In this document: positions 9,232 to 23,334 of the stretch, piece after piece
Layout of the letters: every line of letters starts with the position of its first letter
Numbering within the stretch: the stretch's first letter is position 1
Source: Bryobacterales bacterium
GTDB taxonomy: Bacteria > Acidobacteriota > Terriglobia > Bryobacterales > Bryobacteraceae
Assembly: GCA_003166875.1 (NCBI GenBank)
Contig: PMUN01000125.1
Coordinates: 15,129-54,078, forward strand
DNA length: 38,950 nt
Direction of reading: 5' to 3'
The notes under the pieces: model-generated
What the model was told of the DNA's origin: nothing
What the model saw: the letters and a program-made list of their open reading frames with translations, nothing else
Database searches by the model: none
Translations under genes and position numbers: made by a program

Positions 9232-9276
9232 GCCCGGGTGGCGGAATCGGCAGACGCATCGGACTTAAAAGTCCGA
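9232..9276 (+). pseudogene. 5' half of a tRNA-Leu(UAA) gene (split tRNA, left part)
   Basis: The acceptor strand GCCCGGG (9232-9238) is followed by a normal Leu D-arm and an anticodon arm with CUUAAAA (anticodon UAA). Then UCCGA-type stem bases follow after an extra G. No variable arm, T arm or 3' acceptor follows. Bases 9238-9268 (31 nt) are identical to 9321-9351 of the complete tRNA-Leu just downstream. The missing CCCGGGC acceptor strand occurs 14 kb away at 23324-23330. Confidence 0.8.
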
Positions 9277-9314
9277 TCGGGTCAGTCGGCGTTTCGTGCT
9301 ATCTTTGAAGCCGT

Positions 9315-9647
9315 GCGGGCGTGGCGGAATCGGCAGACGCATCGGACTTAAGCGAAAACTTGAGTGCCCGCCGGGAAACCGGCGATGGTAGAACTGCTCA
9401 AAGTCGGGGAACCCTCTGACATGGCGATCCCGAGCCAAGCCCTGCCGGAGCAATCAGCGTTCCGGTTGGGAAGGTGTAGAGACTAGACGGGCAGCGCCTA
9501 ATCCCGAAACTGATTTGGGGCATGGCGAAGGGATAGTCCAGACCCCAAACCTTGCTGCAATCAAGCGGGGGCGGCGAAAGCCGTAGTGGCAAGAAAATCC
9601 GTTGGACCGCAAGGTCCGTGAGGGTTCAAGTCCCTCCGCCCGCACCA
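9315..9647 (+). tRNA. tRNA-Leu(UAA), interrupted by a group I intron
   Basis: The 5' exon is 9315-9349 and the 3' exon is 9594-9647; the spliced tRNA is 89 nt with encoded CCA. Acceptor GCGGGCG pairs with CGCCCGC. The D stem GCG/CGC, anticodon loop CUUAAAA, long variable arm (GGACC-GCAA-GGUCC) and T arm GAGGG-UUCAAGU-CCCUC are all present. Positions 27 and 43 form a U-U mismatch in the anticodon stem. The spliced product should read UUA/UUG leucine codons. The first 31 nt from the end of the acceptor strand repeat those of the broken tRNA 83 bp upstream. Confidence 0.93.
9350..9593 (+). ncRNA. Group I self-splicing intron in the tRNA-Leu(UAA) anticodon loop
   Basis: The intron is 244 nt and lies after the U34-type position (CUU|AAAA), the same site as the cyanobacterial and plastid tRNA-Leu(UAA) introns. 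P1 forms between exon ACUU and the internal guide GAGU (in CTTGAGTG, about 9359-9366), leaving the conserved U-G wobble at the 5' splice site. Core blocks resemble those introns: GATCCCGAGCCAAGCC (from about 9426), GGTGTAGAGACTAGACGG (about 9473-9490), GATAGTCC (9532-9539) and a GCGGCGAAAGCCG stem-loop near the end. The last base is G (omega G). No homing endonuclease ORF fits. Subgroup IC3 is assigned from recall of the tRNA-Leu intron family. Confidence 0.92.
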
Positions 9648-9860
9648 ACTTTTCATGCCTCTCACGCCGGGAAACAACGGGCCAGATGGTCCCGCACCGG
9701 CGCCCTGGGATTGGAACCATCCCTTCGTAACCTTTCACCGGCAGGGAACGCCTGCTATCCTGAACTTTTTTTGCCACGATCCGACTCATGCTCGACTCTA
9801 ATGGTATGATGGCGCCCGATTCAATCGGGATGCGCGTCGCGAAGAATACAGGAGAACAAT

Positions 9861-11006
9861 ATGAAAATACTGATGGTCCTGACATCGCACAACCAACTGG
9901 GGAACACGGGCCGCCCGACTGGTTTCTGGCTTGAGGAATTCGCGGCCCCCTATTTCGTATTCAGGGATGCTGGCATTGAGCTTACGCTCGCCTCTCCGAA
10001 AGGCGGGCAGCCTCCGCTCGATCCGAAAAGCGATCTGCCTGAAAATCAAACGCCGGCGATGGCGCGGTTCAAGAAGGACGCGGCGGCGCAAAAGGCTCTC
10101 GCCAACACGGTCAAACTTGCGGACGTGAAGGCGGAAGACTTCGACACCGTTTTCTATCCCGGTGGGCACGGCCCGATGTGGGATCTCGCGGAGAGCCCTA
10201 CGTCGATCGCCCTTCTGGAGGCCTTCTACAATTCCGGCAAGCCAATCGCATTGGTGTGCCATTCGCCCGGGGTGCTTCGCCACGTTACCTACCAGGGCGC
10301 TCCGCTGGTGAAAGGAAAACACGTCGCCGGTTTCACGAACGGCGAGGAAGAGGAGATGCAGCTCACGAAGGTTGTGCCGTTCCTGGTCGAAGATGAACTG
10401 CTGCGGCTCGGCGCCATATACGAGAAGGTGGCGAACTGGCAGCCTTTTTCTGTCACTGACGGCCGTCTCATTACTGGCCAGAATCCTGCGTCGTCGACCT
10501 CGGCAGCTCAGGCGCTTCTGAAACTCATGACTGTATCGGAATTGGAGCCGTCAATAAACAGCGTACAAATCGGACAGAAGAGCTATGAGATGCCCCCGCG
10601 GGACGGAATCAGCGTCGCACATTTTCTCACCGTCGCCGACATCGACCGATCGCTTCGCTTCTATGAAACGGTCTTCGGCGGTCGCGCTCTGAGCAGAGGC
10701 GACAGCAAGGGCGCGCCTGGGTACATTCAGATCGCGAATACGTGGCTCCTTGTCAACGTCGGGGGCGGGCCGACCCCCGACAAGCCGTCGGTAACGCTTA
10801 GCGTCCTCGCCGACCCGGATAAGATCAGCAGCTTTATGAATATCCGCGTTGCGGATATTCAAGCGTGCTATAAATTATGGAAAAGTCGAGGAGCCGAGTT
10901 CATCACCGAGCCGATCCCCAAGTACGGCGAGACGCGCTGCTACATCCGCGATCCTGACGGTTATATTATCGAGGTCGGGCAGAGCACCGACCTTACGTAC
11001 GGTTAA
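9861..11006 (+). CDS. DJ-1/PfpI (glyoxalase III-like) fused to a VOC/glyoxalase I-like domain
   Basis: This is a 381-aa single-frame fusion. Residues 1-225 are a DJ-1/PfpI domain of the HchA-like type. It has a GFWLEEFAAPY segment with the conserved Glu, DTVFYPGGHGPMWDL, and the nucleophile Cys133 in LVCHSPG. Residues about 250-377 are a vicinal-oxygen-chelate domain (His254 in VAHFLTVADI, RFYETVFGG, and RDPDGYIIEVGQ with metal-ligand Glu371). Both families include methylglyoxal-detoxifying enzymes: glutathione-independent glyoxalase III and metal-dependent glyoxalase I. A combined aldehyde-detoxification role is an inference. The start is ATG 9861, preceded by AGGAG about 7 nt upstream. The neighbourhood is stress-related. 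Confidence 0.9.
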   Translation: MKILMVLTSHNQLGNTGRPTGFWLEEFAAPYFVFRDAGIELTLASPKGGQPPLDPKSDLPENQTPAMARFKKDAAAQKALANTVKLADVKAEDFDTVFYPGGHGPMWDLAESPTSIALLEAFYNSGKPIALVCHSPGVLRHVTYQGAPLVKGKHVAGFTNGEEEEMQLTKVVPFLVEDELLRLGAIYEKVANWQPFSVTDGRLITGQNPASSTSAAQALLKLMTVSELEPSINSVQIGQKSYEMPPRDGISVAHFLTVADIDRSLRFYETVFGGRALSRGDSKGAPGYIQIANTWLLVNVGGGPTPDKPSVTLSVLADPDKISSFMNIRVADIQACYKLWKSRGAEFITEPIPKYGETRCYIRDPDGYIIEVGQSTDLTYG

Positions 11007-11067
11007 CGCTAGGTTCAGGCATAGGGCATAGAAAGGAGCATCATGTGAACCTAAGGAGACCACGCAC

Positions 11068-11160
11068 ATGACTGCCCCCATCACGGCGAACACGCTCGGT
11101 GTGAACGTTTTTACCGCCCCGGGAAAGGCAATGGCAGGCGAGCGGCCAAAGCCCTTCGGC
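11068..11160 (+). pseudogene. N-terminal fragment, possibly of an MBL-fold hydrolase
   Basis: A good AAGGAG box precedes ATG 11068. The first 31 codons (MTAPITANTLGVNVFTAPGK, then AMAGERPKPFG) look like a real protein start, and I associate it with metallo-beta-lactamase-fold hydrolases. After about 11160 the frame runs antisense across the integrase remnant and loses protein-like character. The frame stays open to 11418, so a 116-aa product is formally possible. Family assignment is tentative. Confidence 0.35.
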
Positions 11161-11208
11161 GAAGCGGAGTCCCCACATGAAAATCATCGGAGATTCTTCA
11201 ATCCATTC

Positions 11209-11346
11209 CTAACGATTCTGCAGAAGGTGCAATTTGGGTTTACCTTCGAAAGCTTCCTGCAAGATCTTGGTGAGACGCTCCTGATGCTCGGGCACCCAAG
11301 CGGCATAATGCGCCCTGACAACATCTTCGGTGTTGCACACGTGTCC
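11209..11346 (-). pseudogene. C-terminal remnant of a tyrosine recombinase/integrase
   Basis: Read on the minus strand from 11346 to the stop at 11209-11211, the frame gives GHVCNTEDVVRAHYAAWVPE and then HQERLTKILQEAFEGKPKL. This matches the end of phage-type integrases: the LGH box, about ten residues, then the HY carrying the catalytic tyrosine (Y at about 11306-11308) and a basic tail. A TAA stands directly before the Gly codon, so nothing upstream is in frame; the R-H-R part of the active site is missing. It is a broken relic inside the tRNA-bracketed island. Confidence 0.6.
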
Positions 11347-11357
11347 TTACCGAAAAA

Positions 11358-11389
11358 TGCGTCCGGGTCATCCTGCGTCCGGGTCATCC
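11358..11389. repeat. Tandem repeat, 2 x 16 bp
   Basis: The unit TGCGTCCGGGTCATCC occurs twice without a gap, at 11358-11373 and 11374-11389. It lies directly next to the integrase remnant. A TATAAT box follows at 11414-11419 without an obvious -35 element. Confidence 0.8.
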
Positions 11390-11518
11390 AGCGACTCATC
11401 GTGTTAGTCATTCTATAATGGCGTTGTGTTAACAACGACTCTGGACACACCCGAGTTGGAGGTTTTGATTCCTAGAGATGGCGCGCGTGATTGGCAGCCA
11501 GGTTGCTAGTCAAGAAGC

Positions 11519-11755
11519 ATGTCCAAGATCACCGAGGCTAGCCGCGATCATATCGCCGATGAAAACTTCGCGTTCCCCAAGGAACGTAAAGAACCCATTC
11601 ATGACACCGCTCACGTGCGCAACGCAATCGCCCGCTTCAAGCAGGTCCAAGGAGTGACCGAGGCTGAACGCGACGCGGCCTGGAAACGCATAAAATCCGC
11701 CGCGAAAAAACACAAGGTAGAGTTGAACGAAAAAGACTGGCGCGAACTGAGTTAA
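11519..11755 (+). CDS. Small DUF6582-like hypothetical protein
   Basis: This 78-aa, very hydrophilic protein has the pattern FAFPKERKEPIHDTAHVRNA, then IARFKQVQGV and an Arg/Lys-rich helix (AAWKRIKSAAKKHKVEL). Small proteins with the same 'FALP..R.YPI.D..HARNAL' layout are common in phages and soil bacteria and are annotated DUF6582; their function is unknown. The start is ATG 11519 with a weak AAGAAG upstream. Its stop overlaps the end of the convergent reductase relic. Confidence 0.6.
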   Translation: MSKITEASRDHIADENFAFPKERKEPIHDTAHVRNAIARFKQVQGVTEAERDAAWKRIKSAAKKHKVELNEKDWRELS

Positions 11756-12493
11756 CCACTCGTATGCGGGTTCCCTCCGGCCGCGCGGCTAGGAGGACCG
11801 CCGCGATTCACGCTGAGTAGCGCACCTTTCGCTTTCAGTGCGGTTCTTGCATCGTTCGAAGACAGGCTTACGGCGTCCTTCAAATGCCTCGCGAGCATTT
11901 CCTTATCAATCAGTCCGGCCTCGCCTTGCCAGGGCCGCTGCGATTTCGACATTTCAGTCATGCTGGCGATCAACTTGTAGTTCGGATTCTCTCGTTCCAG
12001 AGCCTGGAGCTCATCCAGAAACGGAGCATCCTCTGGACGGCGGTTCGAATAGAAAAGGAAGATTCGGTGAGGCAGCTTCTCTTTCGCGGCGCGGAACACA
12101 ATACTTCGAAAAGGCGTGATTCCGATACCGCCCGCTAGAAACACCGCCGTTCGCTTCACATTGTTGTGAAGAGTCAGGCTGCCGGACGGTCCTTCGATCT
12201 TATACTGCGGAGCTTAGCGGCATGGTATTCAACACACGCTTGAATGCCGTATCGCGCATGCGGGTGGCCACCATCAGGGTGTCTTCGTGAGGAGCGCTCG
12301 CGATGGAAAACGACCGCACATTTCCTTCAGCATCCATCTCTGAAGGATCAAGCAAAGTCATGTCGACATACTGGCCCGACTTGAATGTCCAGTTCGATGG
12401 CTTTTCAAAGAGGAATGCGGTCGTGCCTTCCGCTACCTCATGCCTGCTCAAGAGTTTGGCCATAGTGACTGGCGAAGCTGTAGTAGTCGACAT
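11752..12493 (-). pseudogene. Ferredoxin-NADP reductase-like flavoprotein, frameshifted and C-terminally altered
   Basis: The start is ATG 12491-12493 with AAGGAG 7 nt upstream. The FAD domain is intact (FKSGQYVDMTLLDPSEMD, then RSFSIASAPHED). At about 12212 one base is gained: the starting frame ends in LSSAV-stop, while the next frame continues sensibly (QYKIEGPSGSLTLHNN, AVFLAGGIGITPFRSI, FLFYSNRRPEDAPFLDEL). After LARHLKDAV (about 11875) the usual nucleotide-binding tail (a GPPAMV-type motif and a closing aromatic) is absent. It is replaced by about 38 unrelated residues. Two lesions make it a likely pseudogene of a single-domain NAD(P)H:flavin/ferredoxin reductase. Confidence 0.75.
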
Positions 12494-12819
12494 AAGTTCT
12501 CCTTCTCGCGTATATCTTCCGGAGTCGGCGTTTTTCAAAAGGCAGGAGGAGAGTGATTTTGTTTCGGCGGTCTCCTTCGGCGGTTTCACCCAGATTTAAC
12601 CTGCGTGACTAGCCGACGTGCTTCCCCCGAATCTGGATGTGATCCAGCTACAAGCTTTTTGGTTCGGGAAGTTGCTCTAGCGGGTTCGCAGTATTCTGCG
12701 CCATGCTGGCAAACCCGTGCTTTTTGGTCACGGTCATCCTATGGAAGCGGATTCTCACACCGGGGTGCGTCGGTTTCCTCACAAGGAAAAACGTGCACTG
12801 CCCCGGAAAGTCGGTTCGT
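12494..12819. other. Intergenic stretch without a recognisable gene
   Basis: Short frames exist on the plus strand (12605-12889, 12717-12917), but they run antisense through csbD, lack ribosome binding sites and look compositionally random. I see no RNA gene or strong repeat. Confidence 0.5.
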
Positions 12820-12999
12820 TTACTTCCCTAACACCTTTTCGACCTGGCCGACCTTCTTTTGGACCTTGCCTGCCAGCTTTTCATCCTGACCTTTTGTCTC
12901 CATGTCTGGATTGTTGATTGCCTGGCCGACCTTCTCTTTTACTTTTCCTTTGGTCTCATGAAGCTTGCCTTCCAACTCGTCCTTCGTACTCGGTTTCAT
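12820..12999 (-). CDS. CsbD family stress-response protein
   Basis: This is a 59-aa hydrophilic protein. It starts at ATG 12997-12999 behind a strong AAAGGAG box 8 nt upstream. It shows the CsbD pattern: KDELEGKLHETKGKVKEKVG, then NNPDMETKGQDEKLAGKVQK and KVGQVEKVLGK. CsbD proteins are small, cytoplasmic and stress-induced (sigma-B controlled in Bacillus); their molecular role is unknown. It sits downstream of the 17M-like and BON genes on the same strand and probably belongs to the same stress group. A second, broken CsbD relic lies at 16033-16227. Confidence 0.92.
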   Translation of the reverse strand: MKPSTKDELEGKLHETKGKVKEKVGQAINNPDMETKGQDEKLAGKVQKKVGQVEKVLGK

Positions 13000-13105
13000 T
13001 TGTGCTCTCCTTTTAGATATTGATAGCTGCCCTGCGGAGTATGCTTCTGGGCATGGGCTGTTCTCCGCTGGGTGCAGTTAGCGCTTTTATCCGTACCGTA
13101 ACGAC

Positions 13106-13138
13106 CGGGGGCAGGCGGAGCCTCCGCCACCCGCCCCG
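13106..13138 (-). terminator. GC-rich palindrome between the 17M-like gene and csbD
   Basis: GGCGGAG-C-CTCCGCC (13114-13128) is a perfect palindrome flanked by GGGGGC and CCGCCCC-type arms. It lies just after the stop of the 17M-like gene in its direction of transcription. It could act as a terminator or attenuator, but has no U-tract. Confidence 0.35.
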
Positions 13139-13146
13139 ACACAACT

Positions 13147-13707
13147 CTACCGGTGCGCCGCGACCTTGCTGGTCGCGGGATAGTCCGCGCTGGCTTCGCC
13201 AGACGTCGAGATATCCTGGGCGCCCGTGTGCTTCAGCAAATCTTTTGCCCGCGTTATCTGGTCTGACGTGTCGCAGTGCACCGAAAGAAGAACGCCACCT
13301 TCCTTGATGTGTCCTTCATACCGCTTGGCTTCATACTCGGGGATACCCATCCCCACGAGGGCGCCAATAAGACCCCCGACGGCGCCGCCGACTCCGAGCC
13401 CGGCAAGAGCGCCCATGATCGGGCCGGCCGCGATAAACGGACCAACTCCGGGAATCGCAAGAGCACCGATCCCGGCCAGTAACCCCAGCGTTCCGCCGAT
13501 TACCCCGCCCGTCGTAACGCCAGTGGTGGTACCTTCCGGCGCTTTTGTGTTCTTCTCGTGGGCAAAGTCTTTCGACCCCTGGTTGTCCTGGAGCAGAACC
13601 GAAATGTCGTCATTGGAGAAACCTTCCTCCCGGAGGCGCTCGACGACCCGTTCCGCCTGATTTGCGTTGTGGTAGATACCAAACACCGCTGTCTTTTTTC
13701 CTGCCAT
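13147..13707 (-). CDS. General stress protein 17M/YflT-like protein with glycine-rich central segment
   Basis: This 186-aa protein starts with the YflT/17M-type fold (KTAVFGIYHNANQAERVVER, LREEGFSNDDISVLL). A Gly/Ala-rich hydrophobic block follows (about residues 62-118: GGVIGGTLGLLAGIGALAIPG and a second GGAVGGLIGALVGMG). A C-terminal domain closes it (YEGHIKEGGVLLSVHCDT, KDLLKHTGAQDI). Proteins of this layout are commonly annotated as low-temperature- or heat-induced stress proteins; the glycine-zipper block suggests membrane association. The start is ATG 13705-13707 with AAAGGAG 7 nt upstream. Function is unproven. Confidence 0.85.
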   Translation of the reverse strand: MAGKKTAVFGIYHNANQAERVVERLREEGFSNDDISVLLQDNQGSKDFAHEKNTKAPEGTTTGVTTGGVIGGTLGLLAGIGALAIPGVGPFIAAGPIMGALAGLGVGGAVGGLIGALVGMGIPEYEAKRYEGHIKEGGVLLSVHCDTSDQITRAKDLLKHTGAQDISTSGEASADYPATSKVAAHR

Positions 13708-13756
13708 AATTGATCTCCTTTTTGACTGTGAGCGAACGTGAAACTTCGGTGAGGCC

Positions 13757-14155
13757 TTACGGCTTCACTGACATTTTGTTAACGACCTTATCCGGGCTGC
13801 CAGCCCCTTCGGTCGCCATTGCCATGATCGACTTCACCTCATCGTCAGAGTGCACCGGGCCTTTTAATGTCACGGTCCCGTTTTGACTGATGATCTTGAC
13901 GTTATGAGCGTAGGTAGAGAGACTCTTGTCAGCCATGACGGCCTTGCGGATCTTCGCCGTCAAAGCGCGATCGGCGGCATTCATCTTTTGTTTATCCGCG
14001 GTTGCTTCGCCGGGATTCTGATCGCGCTTGTTGACAGCCGTATTGTCAGGCTGCGGCTTAGGGTCCGTCGATTGGGCATAGACCGGGAGCAACAAGGACG
14101 GCAGCAACAGAGCGAATGTGAGTACGTTGGATTTTGTGAGATGGAAGAGATGCAT
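13757..14155 (-). CDS. Periplasmic BON domain protein (OsmY-like)
   Basis: This 132-aa protein has a signal peptide (about residues 1-28, ending PVYAQ), a hydrophilic linker and one BON domain. The domain shows ALTAKIRKAVMADKSLST, NVKIISQNGTVTLKGPVHSD and VVNKMSVKP. BON domains bind phospholipid or other envelope components, and OsmY-type proteins are induced by osmotic stress. It lies upstream of, and co-directional with, the 17M-like gene (49 bp gap) and csbD, suggesting a stress operon or regulon. A 30-nt piece of this gene (13950-13979) recurs exactly at 15667-15696. Confidence 0.9.
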   Translation of the reverse strand: MHLFHLTKSNVLTFALLLPSLLLPVYAQSTDPKPQPDNTAVNKRDQNPGEATADKQKMNAADRALTAKIRKAVMADKSLSTYAHNVKIISQNGTVTLKGPVHSDDEVKSIMAMATEGAGSPDKVVNKMSVKP

Positions 14156-14694
14156 AACGCTCTCTCATAAGCATGTGTAGGCCCAGTCCGCAGGCAGACG
14201 GACACAACGCTCGCCCCGCGTATTGGGAACCGCCGCCGACTCGTTCAGAACAGAAAGAGGACTTCATTCTGATCACACCTCAAGTTCCGTGATGGCGAGC
14301 CGAACGCAACTGCCGCTGACTGAGACACCGTGGCAGCGATCCTGGCATCATCGAGGTCTGAGCCAGCGGTACAGGTAACCTGGTGTGAACCAGGCGCACG
14401 GGTAATCTGATGTGTCTTCAGAACGGCAGCGCTTCGGTCTCATCGACTCTCCCGCCGAAGGTGCCCACTGTGACCGTCCACGGTCATTTGACCTTATATC
14501 GTCGTGCGTGAAGAACCCTCTCGGAGCACGGTACATTCCCTTTGGAGTAGCCGGTCGCCTGCCACTGTAGCACTCTTTCCCTCGTAGGACGAGGCTGCAC
14601 TAACTTCCGTAAACCTCCAGCTTCTGCTTTATGCGCTCGCAAACATCAGTTTGGCCGCCAATCTGCATCCTCTAGATGGAGAAGAGGTAAACAA
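14156..14694. other. 539-bp intergenic region, no gene recognised
   Basis: Short opposite-strand frames (for example 14348-14536 on the minus strand) have no ribosome binding site or recognisable motif. I see no tRNA, repeat or strong palindrome. The region must hold the promoters for the leftward BON gene and the rightward 26-aa gene. Confidence 0.5.
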
Positions 14695-14775
14695 ATGTCG
14701 ACGATATTGATTGTTCTTGTAGTGTTGTTTCTACTCGGCGGTGGGGGCTGGGGATATTCTCGTTACCGCCGGTGA
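14695..14775 (+). CDS. 26-aa hydrophobic membrane peptide (DUF3309-like)
   Basis: The ORF MSTILIVLVVLFLLGGGGWG + YSRYRR is preceded by AGAGG about 10 nt upstream. It has a single transmembrane helix, then a GGGGWGY turn and a basic tail. This is the layout of very short hypothetical membrane proteins (DUF3309 and relatives) that often sit near CsbD/YtxH-type stress genes. It is too short for family assignment by motif alone. Confidence 0.55.
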   Translation: MSTILIVLVVLFLLGGGGWGYSRYRR

Positions 14776-14845
14776 CGCCCGCTGGCCATGTCTCCGCGCT
14801 GGCGAACGACTTCAGGTTGGCTCGTCGAAGCTAAGCGCGATTTGG

Positions 14846-14885
14846 CAAATCAGGAAAGACCAGAGCAAATTAGGAAAGACCAGAG
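14846..14885. repeat. Tandem repeat, 2 x 20 bp
   Basis: CAAATCAGGAAAGACCAGAG (14846-14865) is followed immediately by the same unit with one T for C change (14866-14885). It sits just before the DksA-like pseudogene. Confidence 0.85.
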
Positions 14886-14894
14886 TACGACCCC

Positions 14895-15276
14895 ACGACA
14901 AAAATCGAACTGAACGCATTCAGAAGTGTCTTGGAGAGCCGACAGACTGATTTACGAAACGGCAGCAGAAGCCGCGAGGCTATGGCCATCGAGACGAGTC
15001 CGGATGAGCTGGACCGAATCCAGCACGCCAGCGATTCGTGATCTGGCGATCGACAATCTCGAGCGCGATTCCAGCCAGCTTGCAGAAGTACGAAGCGCAC
15101 TTCGCCGCGTCAATGCAGGCGCATTTGGATTCTGCGTTGGCTGCGCAGAGAAAATCAATCCGAAGCGCCTTGCTGCAGTCCCGTGAGCTTCATTCTGTTT
15201 CGTCTGCCAAGAAGCTTTGGAACGCACGAAGACTCCCTGGAGCGATATCGACACATCGCTCGTCATGGCGGCCTGA
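14895..15276 (+). pseudogene. TraR/DksA-type zinc-finger protein, broken by frameshift and in-frame TGA
   Basis: A DksA/TraR-like protein of about 126 aa can be reconstructed. The first frame begins at ACG 14895 (ATG expected: TKIELNAFRSVLESRQTDL) and runs to IQHASD. After a one-base shift at about 15038 it continues as RDLAIDNLERDSSQLAEVRS, ALRRVNAGAFGFCVGC and EKINPKRLAAVP. There TGA (15184-15186) replaces the expected Trp, and the same frame goes on with ASFCFVCQEALER to a real stop at 15276. The zinc-binding C4 set (CVGC...CFVC) is complete. DksA proteins bind RNA polymerase and mediate stringent-type control; this copy would end before the second cysteine pair. Confidence 0.75.
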
Positions 15277-15353
15277 AAAGCGGTCCAGCTTTTGCTCACG
15301 GTGCCGTCGAAGTTCAGAATATGCGGTGCTCACCAATGAGCAGACGAGAAACC

Positions 15354-15503
15354 ATGCTTTGGACGATTGTCACAGTGTAATCGGATCTTTGGCTGTTGGG
15401 ATGTAGGCAGAGCATTAGCGAGATCCTGATTCACTAACTACTGGTTGCAGCATTGGTGGTTTTCGTCATCAACCTAGTGAATTCCCGCATAGGCGCGGCT
15501 TAG
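15354..15503 (+). pseudogene. Decayed Lmo0937-type small membrane protein
   Basis: MLWTIVTV-stop, then LWLLG, then SEILIH-stop-LLVAALVVFVINLVN. These pieces in a nearly constant frame recall the Lmo0937 family layout (MLWTI..ILL.LWLLG...GG.IHLLLV.A.VV...). Two in-frame stops (TAA about 15378, TAA about 15444) and missing residues show decay. Two intact relatives lie at 15813 and 19344. Confidence 0.5.
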
Positions 15504-15666
15504 CTGCCCAGCACCCGCTACCGTTCATCAGCACCGCAATCCGTGATCCTGGGTGGTGAGCCGCACTTCTTCTATCATCGCCAAGACTCCGCCGTCCCTA
15601 TCAGGCTCGCACCTTCCTTGCACCGATTCGGCGCTTGCGGATGGCGCCGGGGGCGCCGGTGATAAA

Positions 15667-15696
15667 ATCTTCGCCGTCAAAGCGCGATCGGCGGCA
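15667..15696. repeat. 30-bp exact copy of an internal piece of the BON gene
   Basis: Bases 15667-15696 equal 13950-13979 exactly; on the minus strand they encode the AADRALTAKI segment of the BON protein. The copy ends at the first base of the 275-bp repeat, which suggests a recombination joint. Confidence 0.85.
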
Positions 15697-15970
15697 GGTT
15701 CCATGACTCATCGTTCGAGCGAATCGCTCAACAGAAGATGACGTTGGCCTGGCGCGTGCTCTTGAGGAAGGGTGTCCCCAAAGCCTGTGGGTGACATACG
15801 AAGGAGATTCCAATGTTTCTAACGCTATTCGCTATTTTGCTTGTAATGTGGGTGCTTGGATTCTTTGCGTTCCACGTTGCCGGTGGGCTGATTCACCTTC
15901 TGTTGATATTCGCGGTGATTTCTTTGGTAGTGCACTTCTTCAGGCGTCCTAGTGCGGCCTGAAGGCAGTG
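15696..15970. repeat. 275-bp direct repeat, copy 1 (Lmo0937-like gene with leader)
   Basis: It matches 19227-19501 over the full 275 bp with only scattered substitutions and no indels. It includes a palindrome GAGCGA-A-TCGCTC (15717-15729), a leader with GGAAGGGTGTCCCCAAAGCC, the AAGGAG box and the whole 49-aa gene. Confidence 0.95.
15813..15962 (+). CDS. Lmo0937-family small membrane protein, copy 1
   Basis: This 49-aa peptide begins MFLTLFAILLVMWVLGFFAF and ends FFRRPSAA. It has two hydrophobic helices separated by HVAGGLIH, the Lmo0937-family pattern. An AAGGAG box ends 6-7 nt before ATG 15813. Members are inner-membrane peptides of unknown function, often beside CsbD and YtxH genes, as here. 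It is almost identical to the copy at 19344 (one residue, V/I, differs). A conserved palindrome 84 nt upstream may be an operator. Confidence 0.8.
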   Translation: MFLTLFAILLVMWVLGFFAFHVAGGLIHLLLIFAVISLVVHFFRRPSAA

Positions 15971-16032
15971 GATCGGTTCCGGGAATTTAATGCAAGAGTA
16001 GCCGGGCTGACGGAATTCACAAATTGAGGAGG

Positions 16033-16227
16033 CTACAGTCGCCCCCACTCCGTGCTGAGGTCTACTTTTCTAGGACCTTTCCAACGGTCGCCCACTTTCT
16101 TCTGAATTTTGCCGCCGACCTTCTCGGCCTTTCCCTTAACTTCCAGGTCAGGATCGTTGGTAGCGTGTCCCAGCGCTTCTTTCACTGTGCCTTTGAGTCC
16201 GTGTGGAGCGCCTTCGACCTGCTTCAG
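16033..16227 (-). pseudogene. CsbD-family relic with frameshifts
   Basis: From 16227 leftward the frame gives LKQVEGAPHGLKGTVKEALG, then HATNDPDLEVKGKAEKVGGK and IQKKVGD, a typical CsbD body. There is no start codon in frame: the frame is joined at its 5' side to a response-regulator fragment. Near the C-terminus a one-base shift turns the expected VGKVLEK ending into RWKGPRK and a longer tail ending at 16033. It has two lesions, so the gene is dead or a fusion relic. Confidence 0.75.
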
Positions 16228-16228
16228 A

Positions 16229-16310
16229 CATAGCCCTGGGCACCGGCGCGAATCGCTCTCACCACTGAATGCTCGTCGCCCTTGATCGAGAGCATGACGA
16301 ACCTAAGTCA
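16229..16310 (-). pseudogene. REC-domain fragment of a NarL/FixJ-type response regulator
   Basis: The minus-strand frame reads LRFVMLSIKGDEHSVVRAIR and AGAQGYV-stop. It matches the alpha4-beta5 end of receiver domains (V.MLS...DE..V..A..AGA.GY.LK, where the Lys is the conserved switch residue). One base is missing before the LK that opens the CsbD relic, so the two fragments are fused back to back. The phosphoacceptor part and the output domain are absent. Confidence 0.6.
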
Positions 16311-16465
16311 GGCAACCAATCGATGTCTTACACCGGACGCGATAATATCACGCTAAGAACACGCGTTTAAGAAGTTGGTAGACCACATGCAGGCTTGAGA
16401 GGGAGGATCCCGATGGGACACATCGTGGCAACCTCGGCGCAACACAGAGAACAAAGGAGACGATC

Positions 16466-16780
16466 ATGGAAACTGACAATAGAGTCGGCTATTTCTTCCT
16501 CGGTCTTGGTTTGGGAACCGCTGTTGGATTGCTTTTCGCTCCAAAATCTGGAGCCGAGAGCAGGAACTATTTACGATCCAAAACGCAGGAAGGCACGAGC
16601 TATCTGAAGAACCAGGGCGAGCAGCTGGTCAACGGCGCGACCGAGACGGTCGAGCGTGGCATGAAAACGTTGCAGGATCAAGTCGAGAGCTTTTCGGAGG
16701 CAGTCGACGCTGGGAAGGAGGCCTATCGCGAGGCGGTAGCAACGTCAGCCTCTACGGTCGGCTTAACCGGGCGCGGTTAA
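16466..16780 (+). CDS. YtxH domain protein
   Basis: This 104-aa protein starts at ATG 16466 behind AAAGGAG 8 nt upstream. The N-terminal glycine-rich transmembrane segment (YFFLGLGLGTAVGLLFAPKS) carries the LLFAPKSG signature of YtxH proteins. A long amphipathic helical part follows (LRSKTQEGTSYLKNQGEQLV, VERGMKTLQDQVESFSEAVD). YtxH proteins are stress-associated and probably membrane-bound; their mechanism is unknown. It fits the surrounding cluster of CsbD, Lmo0937, BON and 17M-like genes. Confidence 0.9.
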   Translation: METDNRVGYFFLGLGLGTAVGLLFAPKSGAESRNYLRSKTQEGTSYLKNQGEQLVNGATETVERGMKTLQDQVESFSEAVDAGKEAYREAVATSASTVGLTGRG

Positions 16781-16985
16781 ATTTTTCGATTCAGATGAGG
16801 GCGGGCTGGCCAGGCCGCTCTCTTCTATCCTTACGACAAATCTGGTCAACTACGTAACCAGCAGCTTGAATAAACTTACGTTGGATCCCATCCCGCCAAT
16901 TGCATCGGTCAACGATGCGCGGGTAACCATCTCGAACCGTACTCACGATGGTGTGGCAGGGGGCGACCCGCCGCCCCTATGGCGA

Positions 16986-17255
16986 TCAACTCGGCTTCGG
17001 TCCGGCGATGCGCATCGGAACCGCTACTTGGACCAACCGTCGCTTCGCAGGCATTAGTTTAGCGATTCGCGGTTTAAAGATCTTGTGCTCGCCCTTGTCG
17101 GTTTGTGCCACAGGCTGATTGTTTTCATCCGAAGAGAACCCGGTAATTGTGGCTTTACGATTCTTAAACTTGCCGACCAGCAGGACATCACCTACTGCCA
17201 GTCTTGGAAGCTTGTACGCTTTCTCGCTAGTCTTGCGGTTATGCTGCTTTAGCAT
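16986..17255 (-). CDS. Small basic hypothetical protein
   Basis: This 89-aa Lys/Arg-rich protein has a compact core (VGDVLLVGKFKNRKATITGF, then DENNQPVAQTDKGEHKIFKP and RIAKLMP). The core looks like a small beta-barrel in which a loop 'G...DE..QPV..TDKGE.KIFKPR' is conserved in soil-bacterial hypotheticals I recall. ATG 17253-17255 lies 15 bp after the stop of the di-haem protein gene, so the two are likely co-transcribed. Nucleic-acid binding is possible from the charge but unsupported. Confidence 0.6.
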   Translation of the reverse strand: MLKQHNRKTSEKAYKLPRLAVGDVLLVGKFKNRKATITGFSSDENNQPVAQTDKGEHKIFKPRIAKLMPAKRRLVQVAVPMRIAGPKPS

Positions 17256-17270
17256 GGTGCTTGACCTGCG

Positions 17271-18671
17271 CTATAGCACCCGCAGAAAAGCTACCAGATC
17301 CGTTTTCTCGGATTGTGCCAACTGAAGTTCCAGCACCAAATTGAAGAATTCCACCGTGTCCTCGAGAGTTAGCAAACGCCCATCGTGCAGATACGGCGGC
17401 GAATCCCTAACCCCGCGAAGAGGAAACGTCTTAATCGGCCCATCCGCGTATGCCATCATCCCATTGACCAGATGCGGCTTGAAAAATCGCTCTGTCCGGA
17501 GATTGTGCATGAGGTTGTCGGTGTAATACGGGGCTTGATGACATTCCACGCACCGCGCCTTGCCAAAGAACAGCAGCTGGCCGCGCATTTCCGCCGCGTC
17601 AGCCTTCTTGGAATTGAGTTTCCCATCCACACCGAGCTTGGGAGCCGGCGGAAAGTCCAGCAGTTCTTGAAACTCCGCCATGGCGTGCACTTGGCTCCCT
17701 CGATCGAGAATGTTCACGCCCTTCTTCTGCGCGATCACGGGGTCACCGTCGAAATACGCGGCGCGCTGTTCAAACTCGGTGAAGTCCTCGACGGTCTTCA
17801 GCGCTCGCTGCGAGCCGAACAAGCGTTGAATATTCACACCGCGAAGTGACGGCGTGTTGATCCGATGCCGGAACTCCTGCGGCCGGGTGTCACCCGCCAA
17901 ATGGGTAGCTCGATTGGTGTGACCGTTCGCGTGGCAGTCGAAGCATGCCACTCCCCGGCTCGCGCGTTCCGAGCGCCGGTCTTCGGTGGCATTGAACTGT
18001 TGCTGCGGGAACGTCGCCACCAGCAGGCGCAATCCCTCTAACTGCTTGGGATTCAGAATGCCATTGAATAACTCGTAATAGTTGTCCATGGTGACCAGCT
18101 TGCCCTGCGATACATCGCCCAGATCCACTCGGGTAGTTAGATAGATTGGCGGCGGGAATTCTGGTATCAGATGGTCCGGAAAGTCGAAGTCGAGATCGAA
18201 GCGAGCCAGGTCGCGCCCTTCCTGTTTCTTGATCTCGTCGATTTCGAGCTTGGGGAAAAGCATGCCGCCCTCGGGATGATTCGGATGTGGCAGAGGCTGG
18301 AAACCGGCCGGGTACAAGTCCCGTTCTTTGATTTGCTCTGGGCTCAGCTTAGAAAGCTGAGCCCAGGTTGTGCCGCTGGCGAGTTTGACTCGCACGCCCT
18401 GTTGCACTGGCTTGCCCCCCGACATTTTGACTTCCTGAGCCGGGCGATTGCTCAGATCATAGCGCTGCTCAAGCAGCGCCATCTGCCGCTTCATGATCTC
18501 TGGCTTAGCCGCGCTCATGCGGCCCCGGATGGTCGAGAAGCTCTCGTGAATGTCGACCGGCGCGTAGCTCGAAGGCTTTTTGTCGTTGTCTTGTGAGCGC
18601 GCGGCACGGACGCTTATCAACAGCCCGACGGCAAGCACGATCCATCTTGATTTGTGAAATTTCGTTGTCAT
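17271..18671 (-). CDS. Di-haem cytochrome c peroxidase/MauG-like protein
   Basis: This 466-aa exported protein has a signal peptide at about residues 1-26 (IVLAVGLLISVRAARS). Two haem c motifs follow: CFDCH (243-247) and CVECH (374-378). The C-terminal pattern FPLRGVRDSPPYLHDGRLLT (416-435) is typical of bacterial di-haem peroxidases, where it lies near the low-potential haem. The first 200 residues are an unusual long N-terminal extension relative to about 330-aa CcpA enzymes. It probably reduces peroxide in the periplasm, or acts as a MauG-like oxidase; electron partners are not encoded nearby. It may be co-transcribed with the small gene that follows. Confidence 0.88.
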   Translation of the reverse strand: MTTKFHKSRWIVLAVGLLISVRAARSQDNDKKPSSYAPVDIHESFSTIRGRMSAAKPEIMKRQMALLEQRYDLSNRPAQEVKMSGGKPVQQGVRVKLASGTTWAQLSKLSPEQIKERDLYPAGFQPLPHPNHPEGGMLFPKLEIDEIKKQEGRDLARFDLDFDFPDHLIPEFPPPIYLTTRVDLGDVSQGKLVTMDNYYELFNGILNPKQLEGLRLLVATFPQQQFNATEDRRSERASRGVACFDCHANGHTNRATHLAGDTRPQEFRHRINTPSLRGVNIQRLFGSQRALKTVEDFTEFEQRAAYFDGDPVIAQKKGVNILDRGSQVHAMAEFQELLDFPPAPKLGVDGKLNSKKADAAEMRGQLLFFGKARCVECHQAPYYTDNLMHNLRTERFFKPHLVNGMMAYADGPIKTFPLRGVRDSPPYLHDGRLLTLEDTVEFFNLVLELQLAQSEKTDLVAFLRVL

Positions 18672-18865
18672 TGTTTTGAGCGAGGAGCACCGATTGCATC
18701 GAGTGCACGTTCTCGGCCACTCCCGGAACGAGATTGTGACTAAGAAACCGGTGCGCTGGGGTTCAAAGAATGAGGGAACGACGTCCTAGGGATATACCAA
18801 TCAAACATCCGGCCAGGGTGCTCTTCGGGGGCCCTCATGCTGTTAACGATATCTGGTCATGCGTC

Positions 18866-19036
18866 CGATCACAAGAAACTTAAGGAAGAGGCCACCAAGA
18901 AACTTGGGGAGGCGAATGCCCGAAGGCACACCGTCTAAATGGCGTGATCAGCGATGCGGCAGCTCGTCTCGGAGTGCCACGGACCACGTTGAACGCCATG
19001 ATGAAGAAGCTGGGGGGCGCCCGCAAGGATCTTTGA
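18866..19036 (+). pseudogene. Fis-type HTH C-terminal remnant of an NtrC-like regulator
   Basis: From about 18866 one frame gives HKKLKEEATKKLGEANARRH. After a one-base shift at about 18934 the next frame gives LNGVISDAAARLGVPRTTLN and AMMKKLGGARKDL, with a stop at 19034-19036. The second part is the Fis-type helix-turn-helix that closes sigma-54 activators (AAARLGVPRTTL is characteristic). No AAA+ or sensor domain precedes it, so this is a truncated relic. Confidence 0.65.
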
Positions 19037-19173
19037 TGATTCGGATCAGCGAGCATCAGACGTGATCACACGCCTCACAGCCTCATCGAAGCCCTTTCTC
19101 GCGTCAAATCCCCGGATCATTCCGGCGTACTGAACGTCCGTCAGGTGGTGGGGTTACGATTGCCATAACCATA

Positions 19174-19205
19174 TATGGTCAAGTGCCCAGGTATGGTCAC
19201 TTGCC
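19174..19205. repeat. Short direct/inverted repeat pair, possible operator
   Basis: TATGGTCAAGTGCC (19174-19187) and TATGGTCACTTGCC (19192-19205) are 18 bp apart, and contain the inverted pair CAAGTG/CACTTG. A CCATATATGG palindrome overlaps on the left (19169-19178). They lie 22 bp before the second 275-bp repeat. Confidence 0.5.
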
Positions 19206-19226
19206 TCGCGCCCTCTCCTCCAAACG

Positions 19227-19501
19227 AGGTTCCATAACTCATCGTTCGAGCGAATCGCTCAACAGAAGATGACATTGGCCTGACGCGTGCTCCTCCGGAA
19301 GGGTGTCCCCAAAGCCAGTGGGTGATATACGAAGGAGATTCCAATGTTTCTAACGCTATTCGCTATTTTGCTTGTAATGTGGGTGCTTGGATTTTTTGCG
19401 TTCCACATTGCCGGCGGACTGATTCACCTTCTGTTGATATTCGCGGTGATTTCTTTGGTAGTGCACTTCTTCAGGCGTCCTAGCGCGGCCTGAAGGCAGT
19501 G
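19227..19501. repeat. 275-bp direct repeat, copy 2 (Lmo0937-like gene with leader)
   Basis: This is the second copy of 15696-15970, about 3.5 kb away and in the same orientation. The palindrome GAGCGA-A-TCGCTC (19248-19260), the leader and the coding sequence are all retained. Confidence 0.95.
19344..19493 (+). CDS. Lmo0937-family small membrane protein, copy 2
   Basis: This 49-aa peptide is identical to copy 1 except that FHVAGG is FHIAGG. It has the same AAGGAG box and upstream palindrome. Nucleotide changes between the copies inside the gene are few and mostly silent, so both look maintained or recently duplicated. It probably encodes a two-helix inner-membrane peptide of unknown function. 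Confidence 0.8.
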   Translation: MFLTLFAILLVMWVLGFFAFHIAGGLIHLLLIFAVISLVVHFFRRPSAA

Positions 19502-19611
19502 CCACGTCTGGATTTAGGTTGCTTCGAAATGCGTTGGACCTACATCTGCCGTCACAAAGACGGGAAGTCTCGCTGCTTTTAAGGCGATGCAACTGGAGGA
19601 GAGTGCGAACC

Positions 19612-19812
19612 ATGAGTCTAACTACATTCGATCCGGCCATAAGAAACACCAAGTTATTTGACCGGCAGAAGTTTGTTCTAGCTGTACACCAGGCTCTCAA
19701 AGAGCACGACAAAGACAGGGATAAAGCAGGCCATTCGGGCCATAATATAGCCATAGACTGCGATAGCGAGCTGGAACATTTTGCAGACCGCATCTTGGAA
19801 CTAATGGACTAA
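19612..19812 (+). CDS. Small acidic hypothetical protein
   Basis: This 66-aa protein starts at ATG 19612, with GGAGGAG about 9 nt upstream. It contains FDRQKFVLAVHQALKEHDKD and IDCDSELEHFADRILELMD, predicted helical and acidic, with no leader. I do not recognise a family. The good ribosome binding site and its place directly after the Lmo0937-like gene suggest a real gene of the stress cluster. Confidence 0.55.
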   Translation: MSLTTFDPAIRNTKLFDRQKFVLAVHQALKEHDKDRDKAGHSGHNIAIDCDSELEHFADRILELMD

Positions 19813-20072
19813 CGCCGAAGCCAGCGGTCCATTGCCGACCATCGATTGGATAGTGGACAGTTTGTTGCTGCGCGCAGGGCGAGCGTGCGTCGCCAAACGA
19901 TGCGGTTCAATTGCGAACCTGGGCTGTCGTCTCCGAAGATGCCGTACTTCCACTCGAAGAGATCGCCCGTCGCATTCTGAGCCAAGAAAAAAAACTCGAA
20001 CGCGAATACGGCGGACAGGGATAGAAGAATCAAGAAAGTCTTCCGCCCTTCCAAAATCGTCACCTCTGACAT
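19809..20072 (-). CDS. Possible small membrane protein
   Basis: The minus-strand frame from ATG 20070-20072 encodes MSEVTILEGRKTFLILLSLS, then AVFAFEFFFLAQNATGDLFE and a basic C-terminus. One transmembrane helix (about residues 11-30) is clear. The open frame extends 31 codons further upstream without a better start. There is no family recognition; the tail (RAATNCPLSNRWSAMDRWLR) looks less protein-like. It may be a chance frame. Confidence 0.3.
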   Translation of the reverse strand: MSEVTILEGRKTFLILLSLSAVFAFEFFFLAQNATGDLFEWKYGIFGDDSPGSQLNRIVWRRTLALRAATNCPLSNRWSAMDRWLRR

Positions 20073-20366
20073 GCCGAGACTGGTTCCCGTGAACCGGCTG
20101 TCATTCCGTGCGTAAGCATTTCCAGGACACGCCGCGCCAATTCTGCTCCGGCGGACATAGGGCAATACACTGTCTCGGTGTCATGATTTTACACCTGCAA
20201 GGGATTTTCTGTGCCCGTTCCTCCGCTTCGAGCAATGCGGCTGCCGCCAACCAGCGCGGCCTAGCCATACCGTTTAAACATGAGTCCGAACCGCGCCATC
20301 GATGAAGTATTTTCGGTTCCGCCTACGCTGATGGGATTAGCTTGCCTGTCCACTGGTGCCCGTCCG

Positions 20367-22103
20367 TCAGACCAGTCCGGTATTGCGTTCGATCGTCTTG
20401 ATCACCGAGTCCATCTTCCCGCTCAACACTTGTTTGGCGAGGCTGAGGGTGAAGCCTGTGACCGCATGAAAGGGAAGATGCGACGGCAATGATAAAGCGT
20501 AGGGATCGACCACCACATCGACCACGACGGGCCCGCCCTGGTGCGCGAGTGCCACCGCGAGCCCTTCTCTCACGTCGCCCGGTTCTTCGATGCGGATGCC
20601 CTTCGCGCCCATCGCCTCGGCGACCTTGGCGAAATTCGGGTTCTTGAAATCGACGCCGAATGGAACCACGCCGGCTTCCTGCATCTCGATATTGACGAAG
20701 TCGAGCGATTCGTTGTTGAGGATGATTTGCACGATCGGCGTCTTCCGCTGCACTTGCGTCAGCAGGTCGCCGAGAGCGAGCATGGTGAACCCACCGTCGC
20801 CGCACAGCGCGATTGTCTGCCGTCCCGGATAGGCGAGTTGCGCACCGAAGGCGTTGGGAGCGGCATTGGCCATGGAGGCCCAGGAAAACGAGCCGAAGAG
20901 CCGACGGTTCGGCCCGCCCTTTATGTGACGCGCCAGCCAGATGCAGGCCGTTCCCGTGTCCGCGAAAAACAGCGCGTCGTCCGCAGCCAGCTCGCTGAGC
21001 GTCGCGGCCAGGAATTCCGGCCGGATCGGCTTGATCCCCGGCCCTTTCTCGGCATAGTGCTGCAGGAGCTCATGGAACGAGGTTGTGTCCGCGACATGCT
21101 TCTCTAGGAAACGGCTGTCGCCCTTATCGCCGAGCTTGGGGAGCAGCGCGGTGACGGTCGCTTTGATGTCGCCCACGAGCCCTAGATCAACGGCGGTTCG
21201 CCGTCCGATGTGCTTCGGGTTCCGGTCGATCTGAACTTTCTTCACATCGCCGCCCGGAAGAAATTCCGAAAACGGAAAATCGGTGCCGAGCATCAGCAGC
21301 AGATCCGCGTCGTGAATGGCCTTATAGGCTCCGCCGTAGCCCAAAAGACCGGTCATTCCGACGGCATGGGGATTGTCATGTTCCAGCCATTGCTTGCCGC
21401 GGAAGGAATATCCGACGGGCGCCTTCAGTCTGGCCGCGAGTTGCAATACCTCTTCGCGTGCATCACGGCAGCCGTCGCCGCCGAAAATTGCCACCTTCTT
21501 GGCGGCATCGATCATTCCGGCCAGCTTGTCGACATCCGCGTCGGCCGGGCGAAATACCGGCGCAGCGGGAATCGTGAACTCATGAACGGAATCATCCGCC
21601 GCGTTCGCCGATGCGATGTCACCGGGCATCGAGATCACTGTCGGCCCCTTGTCTACCATGGCCGTCAGGATCGCGGTCGTGAATACGGCCCGTGCCTGTT
21701 CAGGGTTGACGACCCGCCCGACATAGAGACAGGCCGTATCGAAAAACTTGTACGGGTTCAATTCTTCGAGTGCGGCCGTGTCCATGAGCTTCGTTTCGAC
21801 ATCGCCGGCGATGGCAATGATCGCGGCCCCCTCCTTGCGCGCGTCCATCAGTCCGTTGAAAAGATGCGTCACGCCGGGACCTGCGGTACCGCATACCGCG
21901 ACGGGATCGCCGGTCAGGTACGCTTCGGCGACCGCGGCGAAAACGCCGTACTCTTCATGGCGAACGTGGATGAACTCGATCTTTCCGTTGCGCCGCAGCG
22001 CGTCGATAACCGGGTTCAACGCGTCCCCGACGATGCCGTAGCAGCGTTTAACCCCGGCCTTCGCCAGCAACTCCCACATCGCGTCCGCGACTTTTCGTGC
22101 CAT
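20367..22103 (-). CDS. poxB: Pyruvate dehydrogenase (quinone) / pyruvate oxidase, TPP-dependent
   Basis: This 578-aa enzyme starts at ATG 22101-22103 behind AAGGAG 6 nt upstream. It has the three TPP-enzyme domains: the Pyr domain with the catalytic Glu in FIHVRHEEYGVFAA (about residue 50), the central FAD/DHS-like domain (MLGTDFPFSEFLPGGDVKKV, QIDRNP), and the PP domain. The PP domain carries GDGGFTMLALGDLLTQVQRK, then NNESL (the GDG...N cofactor motif). The C-terminal tail (AVTGFTLSLAKQVLSGKMDS, VIKTIERN) resembles the membrane/quinone-activated tail of E. coli PoxB. The expected reaction is pyruvate to acetate and CO2 with electrons to quinone. PoxB is stationary-phase/stress related elsewhere, fitting the cluster. 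Confidence 0.92.
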   Translation of the reverse strand: MARKVADAMWELLAKAGVKRCYGIVGDALNPVIDALRRNGKIEFIHVRHEEYGVFAAVAEAYLTGDPVAVCGTAGPGVTHLFNGLMDARKEGAAIIAIAGDVETKLMDTAALEELNPYKFFDTACLYVGRVVNPEQARAVFTTAILTAMVDKGPTVISMPGDIASANAADDSVHEFTIPAAPVFRPADADVDKLAGMIDAAKKVAIFGGDGCRDAREEVLQLAARLKAPVGYSFRGKQWLEHDNPHAVGMTGLLGYGGAYKAIHDADLLLMLGTDFPFSEFLPGGDVKKVQIDRNPKHIGRRTAVDLGLVGDIKATVTALLPKLGDKGDSRFLEKHVADTTSFHELLQHYAEKGPGIKPIRPEFLAATLSELAADDALFFADTGTACIWLARHIKGGPNRRLFGSFSWASMANAAPNAFGAQLAYPGRQTIALCGDGGFTMLALGDLLTQVQRKTPIVQIILNNESLDFVNIEMQEAGVVPFGVDFKNPNFAKVAEAMGAKGIRIEEPGDVREGLAVALAHQGGPVVVDVVVDPYALSLPSHLPFHAVTGFTLSLAKQVLSGKMDSVIKTIERNTGLV

Positions 22104-22603
22104 CCGAGACTCCTTCCCGCGAAAGCCGGTCAGAACCGCGCACCGTCCCTATCTGGGTTGGCTGAAACTTCTACCTTGGGTCCGGCTTCTTCGGTTAGTA
22201 TAGATCGGCCAGCCCATCTTTGAACCGTCTTGGACGTCATCAGGCCGGGTGCCGGATTCGCTGGGAACCTTTTCGCAGGGCCACTTTTTCGTTTTCGCCG
22301 TCGCTAATACGTCCGATTGGCAGGGAGTGGTCGTTGAAATGCAGGCCCGATGATGGGCCGAGGAAGGAGTTTTGCTGTTTTCTCCTTTCCGAATCGCGAA
22401 CCGAAGGAGGACGGCGGCAGGAACGCGACGAATCCCCTAAAACATATAAGTCCGCCTGAGGACTTGATTCGGCGCTGGTACGGGGTTCTTGCCGTCTCCC
22501 CCGTTTCATGGCGGCTCCGGGGCCGGTAAAATCGGCCGTCAAGAACAGCCCGGGGAACCAACAGGGAGAACAACCGAATTGACCCAGGCGGATTTTTAGG
22601 CAA
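22104..22603. other. 500-bp intergenic region, no gene recognised
   Basis: Minus-strand frames at 22240-22632 and 22304-22618 have no motifs or ribosome binding sites. A hairpin AAGTCC-GCCTGA-GGACTT (22448-22465) is present. The poxB promoter must lie at the left end. I see no RNA gene. Confidence 0.45.
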
Positions 22604-23200
22604 ATGAACGTTCTCCAATTCATAACGGCCATTCCGTGGGGTGTGTCGAAGGGCAGCGGGTGTTATGTCGGCGCCCGTACGCTCATCAAGGCTCTGCGCG
22701 GGCGCGGGCTCCGGGTCGCTGTGGTCAGGCCGGGAATTATCACCCCGGTCTATACGGCAACCCGGCTGTTATTCAACGAAAGCCTGCGCTGGCGCCGCTT
22801 CAACAGCGCGGCGACGATCGGCATCGATGCCGATGGTTATGCCATCTCCCGCCGGCGAAACGCGCCTCCGCACATCGCCTGCATCAAAGGCGTTCTGGGC
22901 GACGTCTCCGGCACCGACGCTGATTCCCGAATGTGGATCTTGGATGGGATCAACAATCCAGGATTCTCGGGTGGTCCCGTCATACTTGGAACCGGGGACG
23001 ACCTCAAATTTGCCGCAGTGATATCAGGATACTATTTGGAGCCGACAGAGGTGATACGGGGAGGACGGGCCGATTTAGCGCCCGATGCACCCAGAGACAT
23101 CGTGAACGTCAACTCCGGCTTCATCATCGCTCACGACATTGTCTATGCGGTCGATGCAATCAAGAAGCATCCAACCGGCCCGATACGGCCAATCAAGTAA
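22604..23200 (+). pseudogene. Chimeric ORF: glycosyltransferase N-terminus joined to trypsin-like protease C-terminus
   Basis: This 198-aa open frame is built of two unrelated halves. Residues 1-102 (VLQFITAIPWGVSKGSGCYV, RTLIKALRGRGLRVAVVRPG, YTATRLLFNE, PHIACIKGVLGD) look like the N-terminal Rossmann half of a GT4-type glycosyltransferase. Residues about 106-198 (WILDGINNPGFSGGPVILGT, FAAVISGYYLEPTEV, VNVNSGFIIAHDIVYAVDAI) look like the C-terminal half of a trypsin-like serine protease, with the nucleophile Ser122 in GFSGGP. The protease His and Asp and the glycosyltransferase donor-binding half are missing. Neither activity is expected. The in-frame joint is near 22910. Confidence 0.65.
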
Positions 23201-23309
23201 ATACCCTTCAGGCGTGCAGTAGCGTGCAGGGGTTCTCGGGAAAGCTGGTATTAATGGGAACCACAGCAACCTAGAGTCTATAACTTATGCATTCTTATAA
23301 ACTTCCCAA

Positions 23310-23334
23310 GGTTCAAGTCCCACCCCGGGCACCA
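23310..23334 (+). pseudogene. 3' end of a tRNA-Leu gene (split tRNA, right part; att-like)
   Basis: The sequence has the T-loop UUCAAGU with the 3' T-stem CCCAC, then acceptor CCCGGGC (23324-23330), discriminator A and CCA to 23334. The 5' T-stem strand does not match (CAAGG instead of GUGGG), so only 25 nt are tRNA-derived. The acceptor strand is the exact complement of GCCCGGG at 9232-9238. This is the usual footprint left at the far end of a tRNA-integrated element. Confidence 0.8.

Follow-up and report, generated by a model that had tools for sequence, protein, structure and literature searches.

The intron-bearing tRNA-Leu(UAA) gene at positions 9315-9647 of the window (the whole stretch of 38,950 nucleotides analysed here, which lies on contig C373 in a draft genome of 8.0 Mb) is probably the replacement tRNA of an integrative element, which splits the tRNA-Leu(UAA) gene of its host and supplies another in its place. 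As the sequences of relatives show, an element with a tyrosine integrase inserts at a core of about 10 bp, GGACTTAAAA, in the anticodon loop of an intronless host tRNA-Leu(UAA) gene; the host gene is cut, its 5′ half staying at the left end of the element and its 3′ half at the right end. The element brings a complete second tRNA-Leu(UAA), of the same isotype; in full copies this gene comes straight after that of the integrase, and in the short copies with cargo only it sits immediately within the left end. In the mechanism we propose, the host would then depend on the element, because tRNA-Leu(UAA) would be needed for UUA codons. The pre-tRNA of the replacement would self-splice and, since the intron is placed within the 7-nt loop forming the core, the replacement would be kept from serving the integrase of the element as an attachment site.

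The gene is formed by a 5′ exon (9315-9349), a group I intron (9350-9593) and a 3′ exon with CCA (9594-9647), all on the forward strand. The intron, defined by its match to the Rfam group I model and by a covariation-supported structure, splits the core as GGACTT|AAAA; its insertion point lies between CTT and AAAA and its terminal nucleotide is a G, in agreement with the initial annotation, which had placed a 244-nt insert with a terminal G at a CUU|AAAA site. We take this insertion point to be like that of the cyanobacterial and plastid tRNA-Leu(UAA) introns. When the exons were joined, the 89-nt product was called as tRNA-Leu(UAA) by ARAGORN, as anticipated from the pairing of the exons, and no tRNA was called by this program on the unspliced window sequence. 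The assignment to group I holds as to the extent and E value of the covariance-model match (RF00028, full model, 9340-9556, 40.6 bits, E = 7.1e-9), and falls short as to its score, which is under the curated Rfam gathering score of 50, so that a default Rfam scan misses this intron. In an alignment of 14 family introns, the expected helices were recovered with compensatory changes at 11 pairs, and the U-G pair in P1 was invariant (14/14); the splice-site wobble and the group I-type core blocks, first read from the single sequence, are thus borne out. We expect the window pre-tRNA to self-splice. Within the 3′ half of the intron there is also a match, under the cut-off, to the LOOT RNA model (RF03000; 9495-9585, forward strand; 28.2 bits, E = 0.0027, cut-off 46.4), and LOOT and group I introns may have sequence in common. 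The same locus is present in a second genome of the same family (G002:C11), and the host, suspected to be an acidobacterium, is indeed Bryobacteraceae-type.

Two remnants of a resident tRNA-Leu(UAA) gene, and the replacement scheme to which they belong, go beyond the account given in the initial annotation. With the intact 89-nt intronless tRNA-Leu(UAA) gene of relatives as the query, a 5′ remnant with the acceptor strand GCCCGGG was found at 9232-9270 (forward strand; 93% to query positions 1-43, E = 6.8e-10), where it marks the left junction and closes with the core GGACTTAAAA (9261-9270). The left end of the element (GTCCGATCGGGTCAG...; 9271-9314, forward strand) follows, with the motif ACTTAAAAGTCCGATNGGGTCA, found at 13 places in 11 of 237 family genomes, and the putative promoter of the replacement tRNA. 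The presumed interior (9648-23309) holds accessory genes identified by Pfam, including a DJ-1/PfpI and glyoxalase fusion gene (9861-11006, forward strand) and a gene for a TPP enzyme (20367-22103, reverse strand). It is bordered by the 3′ remnant of the resident gene (23310-23334, forward strand), a 25-nt stretch with the T-arm, the acceptor strand CCCGGGC and CCA, identical to query positions 65-89 (25/25), which marks an eroded right junction 14 kb downstream of the 5′ remnant; the 11-mer CCCGGGCACCA inside it occurs once in the window, with 0.01 expected. The cognate tyrosine integrase is seen in relatives but was not found in the window copy: tblastn gave no match to it within the window or its flanks, and no PF00589 match is listed by Pfam on the window's contig. 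Since the window copy likewise lacks recognizable right-end repeats of the kind described below, and its 3′ half is reduced to 25 nt, the 14-kb extent of the element is drawn by analogy. We take this copy for a cargo-only member of the element family that has degraded. Synteny between the window flanks and intact loci gave no proof of an empty site in a close relative. A match to the CyVA-1 RNA (RF02965) was recorded at 22355-22434 of the window (forward strand; 41.5 bits, cut-off 41.4). The window's genome also has two dense tRNA arrays, one of 26 tRNAs (G000:C468, 18900-22100; L056) and one of 13 (G000:C143, 21900-24500; L059), the former with a 78-nt Leu(UAA) gene that could supplement or substitute the intron-bearing tRNA.

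In the relatives, many of which are draft MAGs, the split halves and the ends of the element are better preserved. The 5′ and 3′ halves, taken per genome and in some pairs lying on different contigs, were joined in a script and gave a perfect 89-nt tRNA-Leu in 11/11 pairs (five UAA, six CAA), with 55/55 anticodon-stem pairs matching; none of 20,000 shuffles of the halves reached the same pairing, and the corresponding value for shuffling within the anticodon class is 4.5e-4. Where both ends are on one contig, the halves are 2.3 to about 60 kb apart, with varied, unrelated cargo. Ahead of the core at the right end are three repeats (TTACACA, TTACACA and TTCACA), a pattern with 20 occurrences in 237 genomes and none for the reversed-pattern control. 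Three tandem junctions, in which a right end is directly followed by a left end, were found at the resident core rather than at the intron gene and show that this core has been entered more than once. CAA-site relatives have genes for a relaxase, a coupling protein and a ParA ATPase (in G037, relaxase PF03432 and coupling protein PF02534). Integration in the relatives splits the tRNA gene of the host at a short core and does not restore it, and the window agrees in part, its 3′ half being eroded. The mobile segment suspected from the window gains substance in this way, as split resident tRNA-Leu halves flank integrative elements in its relatives.

Searched with the intact gene, most Bryobacteraceae genomes have the intronless gene whole, and in several of the genomes with the intron it is broken in two. 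An intact UAA gene was present in one of the 13 intron-bearing genomes versus 65 of the 88 others (Fisher p = 7e-6), intact genes being counted at a minimum of 80% identity to the intronless query, so that diverged genes are uncounted. The sole intron-bearing genome with an intact UAA gene is G007, whose intron gene has lost the 5′ acceptor strand; against the proposed mechanism, three genomes (G642, G637 and G383) have an ARAGORN-complete tRNA-Leu(UAA) in addition to the split one. Moreover, the core GGACTTAAAA is contiguous in 30/30 sampled intact host UAA genes and interrupted in 24/24 family intron genes. The one observation that favours a need of the host for the tRNA of the element is the near mutual exclusion of the intron gene and an intact UAA gene.

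The integrase of the element shows homology to PF00589 across the catalytic region, at 22.4 bits against a cut-off of 27.1; a Phenylobacterium relative clears the cut-off with 31.7 bits. Searches led by the integrase, and hence independent of the intron, covered 396 Acidobacteriota and 385 Alphaproteobacteria genomes. The intron tRNA was directly downstream of the integrase in 7/7 UAA-site copies versus 1/14 copies at other sites (p = 7e-5, leaving out the query copy, L479, and L447, where the contig ends after the integrase; p = 3.5e-4 with the ambiguous L482 counted as UAA). The earlier suggestion that the intron moves together with its host tRNA is supported. At L490 a second integrase is next after the integrase, and L453 (G383:C9) is a CAA-site element with an intron-bearing tRNA-Leu(UAA). 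Of the intron loci identified by a pattern search, 20 have the integrase directly ahead of the intron gene, and among alphaproteobacterial and acidobacterial intron loci the UAA 5′ half is 86-194 bp upstream of the integrase wherever readable, except at L158; matching 3′ halves were located in most genomes checked. In G199, for example, contig C74 carries, in this order, the resident UAA 5′ half, repeats, the integrase and the intron tRNA-Leu(UAA), and the matching 3′ half is on C79. A search of the 200 bp upstream of 162 intron loci outside the family found no 5′ half, because in full elements the integrase comes in between and puts it at a distance of about 1.4 kb. Viral contigs with the intron had this integrase or the 5′ half upstream in 0/56 testable loci. 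A second integrase family at tRNA-Leu(UAA) (L333, L335) was rejected as the carrier because, at these loci and at L334, it restores the 5′ half rather than replacing the gene.

By the decoding rules, UUA is read by tRNA-Leu(UAA) alone, and UUG is also readable by this tRNA. A replacement would hence be needed at UAA sites, and the decoding of UUG by tRNA-Leu(UAA) would account for the several CAA-site elements in which no tRNA directly follows. CAA-site relatives also carry a complete tRNA-Leu(CAA) after the integrase, with the stem of this tRNA changed from GGACTCAAAA to CGGCTCAAAA. Whether the intron serves as a shield is, in our judgement, evenly poised: it would hide the core in the replacement tRNA from the element's own integrase, sparing an essential tRNA further insertion or excision, and in CAA elements the recoded stem would serve this purpose. 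The element may instead have picked up a foreign tRNA-Leu(UAA) whose old intron is a passive passenger and protects nothing, an account that we consider possible but would not favour. It draws on the many loci that have the same intron site with neither a 5′ half nor the element integrase nearby: of the 64 Leu(UAA) intron loci on genome contigs that have 1.7 kb or more of upstream sequence, 15 have the 5′ half and 14 the integrase. Because of these loci, the insertion site is probably older than the element. A mere passenger, however, sits poorly with the presence of the intron in every UAA replacement seen, when most host UAA genes are without it, and with the different alteration of the same core region in the tRNA-Leu(CAA) replacements. 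Moreover, the authors of a study of mycobacteriophages speculate that a replacement tRNA may act as attB (PMC10865867), a problem that an intron would solve.

That the intron gene arose as a tandem copy beside a decaying tRNA, with no mobile element involved, is very unlikely. The two window genes are only about 45 bp apart and the integrase was not found there, as a local duplication would have it, but the acceptor stems of the two tRNAs differ (GCCCGGG in the resident, GCGGGCG in the intron-bearing gene), and in relatives the 3′ half follows conserved repeats at a distance of 2 to 60 kb, separated by cargo that is unrelated. The relatives thus contradict a duplication, an exception specific to the window being possible. 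Homing or reverse splicing of the intron into a resident tRNA-Leu in this lineage, routes by which group I introns can move (PMC3984707), is scarcely credible, as the resident tRNA-Leu gene has no intron, the gene that does have it is another one, and 244 nt are too short to hold an endonuclease gene.

A replacement tRNA delivered by an integrative element thus remains the reading we prefer. ICEs, IMEs and cis-mobilizable islands at tRNA genes have an integrase, a MobA/VirD2-like relaxase, a coupling protein and ParA, form cargo-only derivatives and tandem arrays, and normally rebuild the target tRNA gene. Elements among the relatives of the window copy share these components, the MobA/VirD2-like relaxase included, as well as the cargo-only derivatives and tandem arrays; here, however, the tRNA gene is destroyed and replaced. 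The closest known mechanism is the tRNA-dependent lysogeny of mycobacteriophages (Guerrero-Bustamante and Hatfull, 2024; PMC10865867), a phage system for which no intron in the phage tRNA is mentioned, whereas the present elements have a relaxase and a coupling protein, or cargo only, and the replacement at UAA sites has a group I intron in the core. Tycheposons likewise have cargo bordered by a tRNA and a tyrosine recombinase, and the text available to us describes neither the splitting of an essential tRNA nor an intron (PMC10872708). The cyanobacterial and plastid introns share the host tRNA and the kind of intron (PMC4476775; Paquin, 1997 and Rudi, 2002, cited in PMC3984707), but the intron described here is on an integrative element, in a second tRNA gene beside a broken resident. 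We found no report of an integrase-linked tRNA-Leu intron in the open-access literature.

These elements would widen tRNA-dependent integration from phages to mobilizable elements, and the split halves of a tRNA gene are a ready signature by which to find them. Introns have been proposed to keep integrases away from the tRNA genes that contain them (Randau and Soell, 2008, cited in PMC4390854); the shield, if true, would be a bacterial case of introns guarding against integration, and a single integrase with two tRNA substrates would now allow a direct test of the proposal. The element also offers a vehicle for the scattered tRNA-Leu group I introns of Alphaproteobacteria and Acidobacteriota and, if the mechanism is true, would account for part of their spread beyond cyanobacteria.

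As to the source of the intron, its initial description as cyanobacterial/plastid-type is not supported by the tree, in which the window intron falls within a supported set of 20 rows (96/85), all Bryobacteraceae-type, with Acidobacteriaceae and alphaproteobacterial introns as neighbours; the tree took in no cyanobacterial introns, so that the intron may still have an older descent from these. Introns of the window kind were found in many Alphaproteobacteria and in a few Chloroflexi, beta- and gammaproteobacteria. A 4-kb contig (G035:C683) carries four group I introns within 1.7 kb (911-2612; L002, L014, L016 and L017), and ARAGORN calls no tRNA in that region. The module of integrase and intron tRNA is itself present in Alphaproteobacteria, where a relative of the integrase is also followed by a complete tRNA-Leu(UAG) (L486, 2839-2923), perhaps another replacement tRNA.
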